Shown here: piece by piece, positions 3,717-8,612 of the stretch | Layout: each line of letters starts with the position of its first letter | How positions within the stretch are numbered: the first letter of the stretch is position 1 | Virus record (IMG/VR): IMGVR_UViG_3300027987_000369 | Location: 1 to 23,241 of that record | DNA length: 23,241 bases | Strand: one strand, 5' to 3' | Source: a virus | Position numbers and translations under genes: made by a program | The notes under the pieces: model-generated | Databases searched by the model: none | Told to the model about the DNA's origin: nothing | The model's input: the letters and a program-made list of their open reading frames with translations, nothing else

Positions 3717-4737
3717 ATGTCCTGTCTCTATGTTCCGGGTATGGCGGGCTCGACCTTGGGATCCGAATGGCCCAACTGGAGTCGGACGGCCTTTGCGTCA
3801 TGCGGTGCAGAAGTACATCCGTGTCGTGCCACTCCGACATCAACGATCGGCCCGAACCGTCTGTTACGTGGAGAGGGAAGCCTATGTCGCGGCCACGCTG
3901 GTTGCGCGCATGGAAGAGGGGCGGTTGGATCCGGCTCCTGTCTGGTGCGACGTTGAGTCCTTCGACAGCGCGCCGTGGTTTGGTGTCGTGGATTGCGTCG
4001 CTGCCGGCTTCCCGTGCCAACCGTGGAGCAACGCCGGCAAGGGAACGGGCACGAGTGACAAACGGTGGATCTGGCCCGCCATCGCCCGGGTGGTTCGCGA
4101 GGTGGGAGCGGGCCTCGTCTTCCTGGAGAACGTGCCCGGTTTGGTATCGCGAGGTGGCCTCGAGGCAGTGCTCGGTGACTTGGCCGCCCTCGGGTTCGAT
4201 GCGGAATGGTCGTGTCTATCAGCGGCCGAAGTTGGAGCTCCCCACCGACGCAACCGGCTTTTCATTCTCGCCGCCAACCGGCATGGCAGAGCTTGGCTCA
4301 GTGCTGCCGACGCCGACGGCGGCATCGTACGGGTCGAACCAGGGCGGCGCCGCGGGGCGCACGGGGAAGGTGCGCCACAGTCTCGAGTCGATGGCGAAGC
4401 TGCCGACGCCCACCGCGGCGGACTCGAGGGGGACGCGCACCGAGGGCTACGGCAACCCGAAAGCGGGAACCACGCTCACGGATATGTTGAAGGCGGGCCT
4501 GCCGACGCCGACCGCTCGCGATTGGAAGAGTGGGTGCAGCAACATCACTCGCAACAGGCGCCCGCTCAACGAAACGCTTTCGCAGGCTGGCCATGGCCCC
4601 CGCCTAAACCCTGCCTTCGTGGAGTGGATGATGGGTCTGCCACCCGCGTGGACCGAATTAGAGCTTGCGGGAACGGTGTCGTCCCGCAGCAAGCCGCCGC
4701 TGCCTTTGCAGCGCTCGCAGGAAGGATGATGGCATGA
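3713..4737 (+). pseudogene. C5-cytosine DNA methyltransferase with motifs split between two frames
   Basis: The family transfers a methyl group to C5 of cytosine. Motif I (LSLCSGYGGLDLG) begins at ATG 3713 in one frame. From about 3851 the conserved protein continues in the next frame: RTVCYVEREAYVAATLVARM, catalytic AAGFPCQPWSNAG with its Cys, FLENVPGLV, and GAPHRRNRLFILA near 4240-4275. After about 4280 the conserved text returns to the first frame (LPTPTAASYG, LPTPTARDW, FVEWMMGLPPAWTEL near 4620-4660). At the end, ACGNGVVPQQAAAAF is again in the second frame, stopping at 4737. The first frame stops at 4729. Both frames are open for about 1 kb. At least two frame changes are needed, so the gene is disrupted, misassembled or recoded. 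The stop at 4737 overlaps the next start, as expected of an intact operon. Confidence 0.8.
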
Positions 4738-6487: not shown

Positions 6488-7135
6488 ATGAATGATTCCA
6501 AGAAGGTAGCCAAGAAGGGGAAGGCGAAGGGCGGCGCGAAGGGTGCCTCTGCCGACGCGCCGACGCGTATCGAAGCGACGCGTCTCGACTCGATCGAACC
6601 GCTTGCGCGCAACGCCAAGGCCCATGACGTCCCGAAGATCGTGCGGTCGTTTCGTCGCTTCGGGTTCGTTGCGCCACCGACCATCGATGAAAAGACGGGC
6701 ACGCTCGCAGCGGGCCACGGGCGCGTCAAAGCGCTTGAGCGCATGCGCAAGGGCGGCGAGAAGCCCCCTGCCCGAATCGATGTTGCCGCCGATGGCATGT
6801 GGATGGTGCCGGTGTTGCGAGGCATCTCGTTCGCCAACCAGCATGAACTCGAGGCGTACGCCATCGCCGACAACCGACTGACTGAGGTGGGTGGTTGGGA
6901 CAAGGAGAAGCTCACGGACTGGCTCCGCGACGGCGATGAGGACTTCGAGAGCATCGGCTTCAGCCAGGACGACGTGAAGAAGCTCCTGGGTGAGATGTCC
7001 GAGGAGATGGAGAAGGAGGGCGAGTCTGACTTCGTCTTCCAGGTGCTCGTCGAGTGTTCGGACGAGGACCACCAAGCGGAAGTGTTGGCCCAACTTGAAG
7101 GGGAGGGGATGAAATGCCGACCGTTGATATCCTGA
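6488..7135 (+). CDS. ParB/Srx-fold nuclease-like protein
   Basis: A 215-residue protein from ATG 6488 behind GAGGAAG. The first 20 residues are Lys/Gly-rich. Residues about 30-135 form a ParB N-terminal-like domain: I-LDSIEPLARNAK, FGFVAPPTID, the nucleotide-site motif AAGHGRVKAL (GHGR 76-79) and AYAIADNRLTEVGGWD (124-138). The C-terminal part ends FQVLVECSDEDHQAE and GMKCRPLIS, seen in phage proteins that sit before methyltransferases or ABC-like ATPases. The ParB/Srx fold includes nucleases, CTPases and adenylating enzymes, so the reaction here is open. It overlaps the downstream ABC-ATPase gene by 22 bases, which suggests a joint function. Confidence 0.85.
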   Translation: MNDSKKVAKKGKAKGGAKGASADAPTRIEATRLDSIEPLARNAKAHDVPKIVRSFRRFGFVAPPTIDEKTGTLAAGHGRVKALERMRKGGEKPPARIDVAADGMWMVPVLRGISFANQHELEAYAIADNRLTEVGGWDKEKLTDWLRDGDEDFESIGFSQDDVKKLLGEMSEEMEKEGESDFVFQVLVECSDEDHQAEVLAQLEGEGMKCRPLIS

Positions 7136-8065
7136 TCGAAGGCGCGCACCCGGACAGCGTCCGCAGCCGTCAGGTGTGCTCGATGTTTGATGTTCCGCCG
7201 GAACGCAAGTCCGCGCTCAAGTGGCACGGCCAGGTTCCCATTGATGAGCGCGAGTGGTCTGTTGGTCTCATCGTCGGCCCCTCGGGGTGCGGCAAGAGCA
7301 CCATCGCTCGCCACCTGTTCCCCGAGGAGATGGCGCGCACGCTCAAGTGGAAGGGCGGCTGTATGGTGGACGACTTCGCCGACTCGTTCTCGGTGAAGGA
7401 GATCGCCAGCGCACTCGGGTCGGTTGGCTTCAACACCATCCCGGCGTGGCTGCGCCCGTTCTCGGTCTTGTCCAACGGTGAGCAGTTCCGGGCGGGGCTT
7501 GCCCGACTGGGTTTTGGAGCCGGCGACAATGGCCTTCGCTTGGAGGTCGGTTCAACCCCGCCCAAGCGTCGAAGTCGAAGTCTGCCGAACAGAGCACAGC
7601 GACTGGAAGATCTTCGCTCCGTTTCACTATATGAGCGCGGATCTGCTCAAGGCGGCCCGCTGTTGGGTCCTGAAGGTCGGCGGCGAGAAGGTCGCCTTCG
7701 TGGGCGAGAGTCGCTTCCCCCATCCGAAGGTGAAGAACATCCGCCGCATCAACCGCGCCGTGTGCCTGCCCGACTGGCAGGGGCTCGGTCTGGTGTTCGC
7801 GCTGATGGACACGGTCGGGAAGGTCTACTGGTCGCAGAAGGAGCGGGTGCGTGCCTACCCGGCACACCCGTCCTTTATTCGTTCGTTTCAACGTCACGAG
7901 CGCTGGAAGCGCTGCCAGAAGCTCGGGCAGCCCACCAGCGTCAACATGAAAGGCGCGCGCAAACGCAACTGCGCCATCGGCGGTCGCGCGATGAGTTCGT
8001 TCGAGTGGGTCGGCGGCGACGGTGGCATCGACTCGACTACCGCCCGGCAATTGCTGGCCGGTTGA
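7114..8065 (+). pseudogene. Phage ABC-ATPase/GNAT fusion with internal deletion and frame change
   Basis: In one frame from ATG 7114 the protein has Walker A (GPSGCGKST, residues 55-63) and an ABC signature-like LSNGEQFR (119-126). After R131 (about base 7506) the family normally continues with Walker B, D-loop and His switch. None of these is present. The C-terminal domain resumes at once in the +1 frame from about 7502: PDWVLEPATMAFAW, RPSVEVEVCRT, FAPFHYMSADLLKAA, then a GNAT-like CLPDWQGLGL, ending at 8065. I estimate 50-75 missing codons from memory of intact relatives. The first frame reads on to 8076 with an unrelated tail. The product cannot be a normal ATPase. The overlap with the ParB-like gene is intact. 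Confidence 0.8.
7529..8065 (+). CDS. Possible stand-alone GNAT-like (Mom-like?) domain
   Basis: This is the C-terminal domain of the disrupted fusion, readable from ATG 7529 with TTGGAG at 7514-7519 as a possible ribosome site, giving 178 residues. It contains the FHYMS segment (residues 32-36), beta strands WVLKVGGEKVAFVGE and the acetyl-CoA-loop-like QGLG (84-87). Phage Mu Mom, which converts adenine to a carbamoylmethyl form, is a GNAT-fold protein with a comparable HY motif; the resemblance here is an inference. Independent translation would rescue this domain after loss of the ATPase core. An alternative is that it is never made. Confidence 0.4.
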   Translation: MAFAWRSVQPRPSVEVEVCRTEHSDWKIFAPFHYMSADLLKAARCWVLKVGGEKVAFVGESRFPHPKVKNIRRINRAVCLPDWQGLGLVFALMDTVGKVYWSQKERVRAYPAHPSFIRSFQRHERWKRCQKLGQPTSVNMKGARKRNCAIGGRAMSSFEWVGGDGGIDSTTARQLLAG

Positions 8066-8393
8066 ACCCGCTGTGAGGCTTCAGGCGATGCCAGCGATAC
8101 TGATCCAAAAAGCGCACCCCGGGATAGAGCGCTTTCACGCTCTCAATGAGCACCTGCGCCGACGGGAAGCCGTCGGCGACGGCGACCTCGTCGGTGATGT
8201 CTTCGGGGAACCGAAGGTGCAGGATCGACTTCAGCTCCGCCGTGGCGAAGGTGCTGTTCTGCCGATACCCGTTGCGCATGACGATCTCGGTGCCGACCTC
8301 GGGGTCTGGAAGGATCGTTGCTCGTCGCAACGTCGCCGTTTTGGTGCCGGCAAGGATTGGGTCCACAAAGCGCCATTTAAACTGCAACTCCAT
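8037..8393 (-). CDS. ASCH-domain protein (only minus-strand gene)
   Basis: Reading the minus strand from ATG at 8393 to TAG at 8037-8039 gives 118 residues. It has KWRFVDPILAGTKTATLRR, PEVGTEIVMRNG, DITDEVAVADGFPS and AQVLIESVKALYPG. The G-KT-T-RR, P-VG and ADGF patterns are those of ASCH domains, a PUA-like fold that binds RNA or modified nucleosides and sometimes hydrolyses acetylated cytidine. I see no good Shine-Dalgarno before the start. A longer start upstream would invade the divergent gene and lacks domain support. Its 3' end overlaps the GNAT frame by 29 bases in a convergent arrangement. Confidence 0.72.
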   Translation of the reverse strand: MELQFKWRFVDPILAGTKTATLRRATILPDPEVGTEIVMRNGYRQNSTFATAELKSILHLRFPEDITDEVAVADGFPSAQVLIESVKALYPGVRFLDQYRWHRLKPHSGFNRPAIAGR

Positions 8394-8411
8394 CGAGGGG
8401 GACGCTAACAG

Positions 8412-8612
8412 ATGAACGAACGGGGCCAAGCGCAAAGCCAAGCTCACACGGCTTCCATTGTCGCGAACCTGACTCTCTTGCAGACGTTGACTCATATCGT
8501 CCGCGGGGTGCGACGTGGCGCCTTGCTCGACGAGTCGCGCAACGAAGTGAACCAAGCTTGGGCGCTGCTCATCAGGGCGCGCGATCGAGAGATGGGAAGA
8601 CCATGGCTGTGA
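8412..8612 (+). CDS. Hypothetical helical protein (66 aa)
   Basis: ATG 8412 follows GAGGGGGA at 8395-8402. The product is helical, with a hydrophobic first half (SIVANLTLLQTLTHIVRGV) and a charged second half (ESRNEVNQAWALLIRARDREM). It is not hydrophobic enough for a confident membrane helix. Divergent from the ASCH gene, with 18 bases between their starts. Family not recognised. Confidence 0.55.
   Translation: MNERGQAQSQAHTASIVANLTLLQTLTHIVRGVRRGALLDESRNEVNQAWALLIRARDREMGRPWL

Follow-up and report, generated by a model that had tools for sequence, protein, structure and literature searches.

A phage ABC ATPase-GNAT gene probably disabled by a small frameshifting deletion

Fusions of an ABC ATPase with a GNAT domain occur in phages and are predicted to modify DNA bases with an acyl group, as stated in a passage of PMC7824862 that cites earlier work of the same group; Tenacibaculum phage pT24, named there as an example of a carrier, was also retrieved here among the relatives. 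In a passage of the same source, Mom of phage Mu, a GNAT-fold DNA base modification enzyme, is presented as a GNAT superfamily member with DNA bases as its substrate; compared by description, Mom differs from the ABC-GNAT family in that it has no ABC domain. The family is often paired with a ParB-like protein: tblastn searches with the ParB-like protein of the window (the whole stretch of DNA that was analysed, 23,241 bases, which is also the whole virus record) placed such a gene directly upstream in at least 62 of 219 relatives.

The fusion collected in PHROG 11143 has the same halves, order and motifs as the window locus, but the window copy lacks the Walker B, D-loop and His-switch motifs and is frameshifted. 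The closest intact relative, IMGVR_UViG_3300037011_000696 (hereafter L002), is 51% identical over the retained columns and likewise has a ParB-like protein upstream; unlike the window, it encodes the full core in one open frame of 393 aa. The same order, ParB and then ABC-GNAT, is found in the sequenced isolate Jace, a Gordonia/Rhodococcus phage, whose gp86 ('ATP binding protein') is, in contrast to the window copy, a full-length fused product of one annotated CDS of 1095 nt. In Lactococcus phage P335 (Orf24/Orf25) and Streptococcus phage Javan523, the ABC and GNAT parts lie in two frames, as in the window; in both, however, the core is intact and the two frames are in a -1 relation past the ATPase domain, at a slippery-type site. 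The features of the window locus are the following.

6488..7135, + strand: ParB/Srx-like gene, intact (phrog_620, E 4e-31; phrog_498, E 1.5e-30).
7114..7505, + strand: N-terminal remnant of the ABC ATPase domain, frame 1, with Walker A GPSGCGKST and signature LSNGEQFR (phrog_11143 positions 10-124).
7501..7510, + strand: deletion junction GCCCGACTGG, about 170 bases gone, CC.G common to both borders at 7502-7505.
7502..8065, + strand: GNAT-fold domain, +1 frame, otherwise intact, stop TGA at 8063-8065 (phrog_11143 positions 180-352).
7513..8076, + strand: out-of-frame tail of 187 codons, stop at 8074-8076, which a ribosome starting at 7114 would append past the junction.
7516..7531, + strand: candidate site of internal initiation in the GNAT frame, with GGAG at 7516-7519 and ATG at 7529-7531.
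8037..8555, - strand: ASCH-domain gene (PF04266, E 7e-7).

The end of the ParB-like gene overlaps the start of the ABC ORF at 7114 by 22 nt, and phrog_498, one of the two families that this gene matched, is a DNA methyltransferase with a ParB part. A C5-cytosine methylase gene at positions 3730-4737 of the window fits a DNA-modification context. The ASCH-domain gene is convergent with the GNAT frame, and their 3′ ends overlap.

A reading made beforehand from the sequence only (the sequence-only reading) had placed Walker A and the signature-like motif in one frame, with the PDWV text resuming at about 7502 in the next. Both placements were recovered: frame 1 is open over 7114-7512 and holds GPSGCGKST and LSNGEQFR, while the +1 frame from 7502 reads PDWVLEPATMAFAW and leads into the GNAT domain. 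The close fit of the two pieces to the known family was also confirmed, as the phrog_11143 profile matches two non-overlapping segments, at positions 10-124 (E 2.9e-32) and 180-352 (E 4.5e-30), and a profile derived from 44 relatives aligns to the window over its positions 1-130 and 185-354 only, with about 54 positions absent. The N-terminal ABC part is 56% identical to residues 1-131 of L002. The GNAT part gave weak matches to Pfam Acetyltransf_1/7, keeps the Q-G-x-G acyl-CoA loop (LPDWQGLGL) and, in an AlphaFold model of 7529-8062 (pLDDT 82.5), matched GNAT structures in the PDB (best E 6e-7); this model predicts that the domain folds even as a separate piece. Two features of PHROG 11143 are missing in the window: the Walker B/D-loop/His-switch segment (DEFTSVVDR...CH) and the delivery of both domains in one product, through one frame or by -1 recoding, as the GNAT domain lies in the +1 frame with no slippery site.

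The size of the gap was obtained by projecting onto the window the spacing between the two conserved parts in viral relatives, which had been retrieved by means of the GNAT part and among which this spacing is nearly constant. The implied loss was 170 bases in 72 of the 78 relatives holding both parts, and 172, 176 or 177 in the others. This alignment to intact phage homologues upholds the earlier proposal of a single clean deletion of 50-75 codons, and the missing length of 56 codons plus 2 bases therefore entails a frameshift. In L002, the protein stretch that matches the missing block (...LLERSDPIVIDEFTSVVDRQVAKIASHAVQKYVRRNNRHLIACSCHFDIIEWLQ) contains Walker B, the D-loop and the His switch, whose absence had been noted beforehand. 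The piece after the join starts exactly at the PDW motif, past the entire His-switch segment (SCHFDIIEWLQ in L002). In the alignment of 44 sequences, the window lacks 14 near-invariant columns, all of them within the block and including D143, E144, T146, S147, D150, R151 and H178 (L002 numbering); outside the block, 45 of 50 such columns are retained. Both strands of the contig were searched for the missing block, which was not found at any other place. Family members were also checked for an equally core-less, continuous gene; none was without the block, so the reading of the gap as a loss was not refuted.

The join lies at 7502-7505 within GCCCGACTGG. In the comparison with L002, agreement on the left extends through GCCCG (conserved Ala-Arg codons), and on the right it covers CC.GACTGGGT (Pro-Asp-Trp), which leaves an ambiguous join region of about CCCG. 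Judged by the conserved codons of the family and by L002, the identity shared by the borders is at most 4-5 bases; the repeats that had been suggested for these borders thus amount to this microhomology, and no longer direct repeat of useful length was found at the join. Repeats of only 4-5 bases can direct a deletion by replication slippage or end joining, or a chimeric amplification product, but cannot cause repeat collapse in a de Bruijn assembler. As the borders share only 4-5 bases, far below the k-mer length, repeat collapse by the assembler is unlikely. Of the two options offered at the outset, real loss or assembly collapse, the single internal deletion stands and the collapse is disfavoured, with a chimera or bad gap closing as possible sources of error.

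The two halves show no sign of later decay, since their GC3 values (0.84 and 0.82, each in its own frame) resemble those of intact neighbours; their codon-position composition is also coding-like, each in its own frame. Because 45 of the 50 near-invariant residues outside the block are kept, the loss looks recent. The matched major structural genes (terminase, portal, head, sheath and tape measure) are each in a single open frame; hence, the contig is not generally error-rich. Taken together, the short borders, the single-frame structural genes and the coding-like halves favour a real and recent deletion, and we infer that the event was probably molecular and not an error of the data. No strain-level relative was found with the junction 31-mer or the terminase among viral contigs, or with the GNAT part among genome contigs; DNA similarity among phages gave short pieces only, and the terminase of the window had no match in the L002 contig.

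Based on these results, the gene is probably a copy of the known phage ABC-GNAT family that lost its function through a small frameshifting deletion. About 170 bases would have dropped out, with the ends rejoined at a microhomology of 4-5 bases; the ATPase catalytic domain would thereby have lost its second half, including Walker B, D-loop and His switch, and the reading frame would have changed. A ribosome starting at 7114 would then produce a Walker A half-domain of 131 family residues followed by the unrelated 187-residue tail, and the GNAT domain would no longer be made in its normal context. In ABC ATPases without Walker B and His switch, ATP hydrolysis should be lost. The truncated product should not hydrolyse ATP, and the ATPase activity of this copy has presumably been lost. 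The long out-of-frame tail was considered as a sign of selection and rejected, given that 188 open codons arise by chance in 3.5-7% of such frames, as estimated from the genes of the contig.

Two points weigh against a disabled gene. The record is a single contig whose nearest relative is only about 51% identical at the protein level, so a sequencing or assembly artefact has to be considered, in which the gene is intact in the phage and a chimeric library molecule, or gap closing by the assembler, linked the two sides through a short overlap. No second copy of the contig was found, the remainder of the gene is undecayed, and a join at a short common sequence favours chimeras too; on the other hand, the 4-5 bases shared, as judged by the family codons, are fewer than any assembly k-mer, the overlap usually required for gap closing exceeds that length, and the single open frames of the matched structural genes speak against a generally poor contig. 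We regard such an artefact as possible, though rather unlikely. The undecayed GNAT half, with its plausible internal start, would also fit continued use: the deletion may have freed the GNAT domain, which would be translated alone from ATG 7529 and act without the ATPase. This ATG stands at the start of the linker with a suitably spaced GGAG, and the domain is intact and predicted to fold in isolation. The Shine-Dalgarno duplex of -5.6 kcal/mol is matched or beaten by 6 of 86 internal ATGs of the contig (best 7%), and the ATG itself falls within the stretch translated in the other frame through 8076.

The habits of the family argue further against a freed GNAT domain. Split-frame relatives mostly have no start codon for the GNAT frame (27 of 34 representatives), which is reached by a frame change, so a free-standing GNAT is not a family habit; relatives deliver the domain attached to an intact ATPase, and no core-less relative was found. 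As relatives seem not to produce the GNAT domain by itself, use of ATG 7529 is unlikely. Remodelling of this kind is therefore improbable, and slighter still is the chance that the deletion is real and was kept, with a stand-alone GNAT from ATG 7529 modifying DNA or another target without the ATPase, beside a Walker A half-domain. Accordingly, the view that the phage keeps the ParB partner and the GNAT domain without ATPase function holds for the intact ParB-like gene and the retained GNAT fold, while a working GNAT is not supported as stated, the domain being out of frame with the gene start. It could also be argued that the change of frame is the normal recoding of the family and not damage, as about 40 distinct relatives carry the domains in different frames. 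In these relatives, the shift is nearly always -1, after an intact ATPase core, at an A6N or C5AC slippery site; the window has a +1 shift that falls within the core at GCCCGACTGG, where there is no slippery site, and it lacks 56 codons, a loss that a frameshift cannot make good. A programmed frameshift in the window was rejected on these grounds and is barely conceivable.

Among the relatives examined, the fusion is encoded in one frame at 177 loci, while ABC and GNAT lie in different frames at 42 distinct loci (plus duplicates). Two of the 42 are broken copies, the only others among the relatives: in L234:2501-3115 the signature motif is interrupted by an in-frame stop (NGQ*FRAG), and L114:2962-3504 changes frame within the ATPase core. 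Their removal left 40 loci, of which 34 representatives were analysed. The relation between frames is -1 in 33 of the 34, the exception being L074, with a run of 11 A, and the frames typically overlap by 85-118 nt. An in-frame slippery site lies within the overlap, A AAA AAN in 33 representatives and C CCC CAC in one; the commonest prophage type is GTA AAA AAA AAG or AAC, and CCCCCAC is common to the linkers of P335 Orf24/25 and Javan523. No ATG, GTG or TTG precedes the GNAT domain in its frame in the 27 representatives mentioned above. Candidate -1 recoding linkers were located in L087 (3537-3648), L093, L104, L115, L206-L242, L039, L069, L163 and L164. On the family tree, which was built by a quick method and has some weak branches, the split state occupies several separate positions.

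Additionally, 14 fused representatives (L010, L013, L033, L040, L042, L047, L048, L050, L051, L053, L054, L070, L071 and L075) carry an in-frame A-run at the same linker, where a -1 slip meets TAG after three codons in all 14; such a slip would give an ATPase-only product. Together, the split and the fused designs suggest that conserved recoding may yield both ATPase-alone and ATPase-GNAT products in the intact family, much as dnaX makes two subunits. The putative slippage could be ribosomal or transcriptional, the data being compatible with either, and no stable or conserved RNA structure was found downstream of the recoding site in relatives (mean z -0.41). A literature search on recoding or on ABC-GNAT-ParB in phages returned nothing direct. 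The pattern in relatives does not explain the window, but it indicates that GNAT is normally attached to an intact ATPase.

Taken alone, the window locus shows damage to an accessory gene, which is a common occurrence; it suggests that a phage can lose the predicted ABC-GNAT modification system and retain the ParB-like neighbour. The recoding pattern of the intact family is a stronger lead than the deletion and opens a testable approach to a phage modification enzyme that is so far uncharacterised. In P335 (L164, 3585-3965), the annotation starts Orf25 at a TTG and so clips the start of the GNAT domain, which begins upstream of it in the same frame and has no start codon there.
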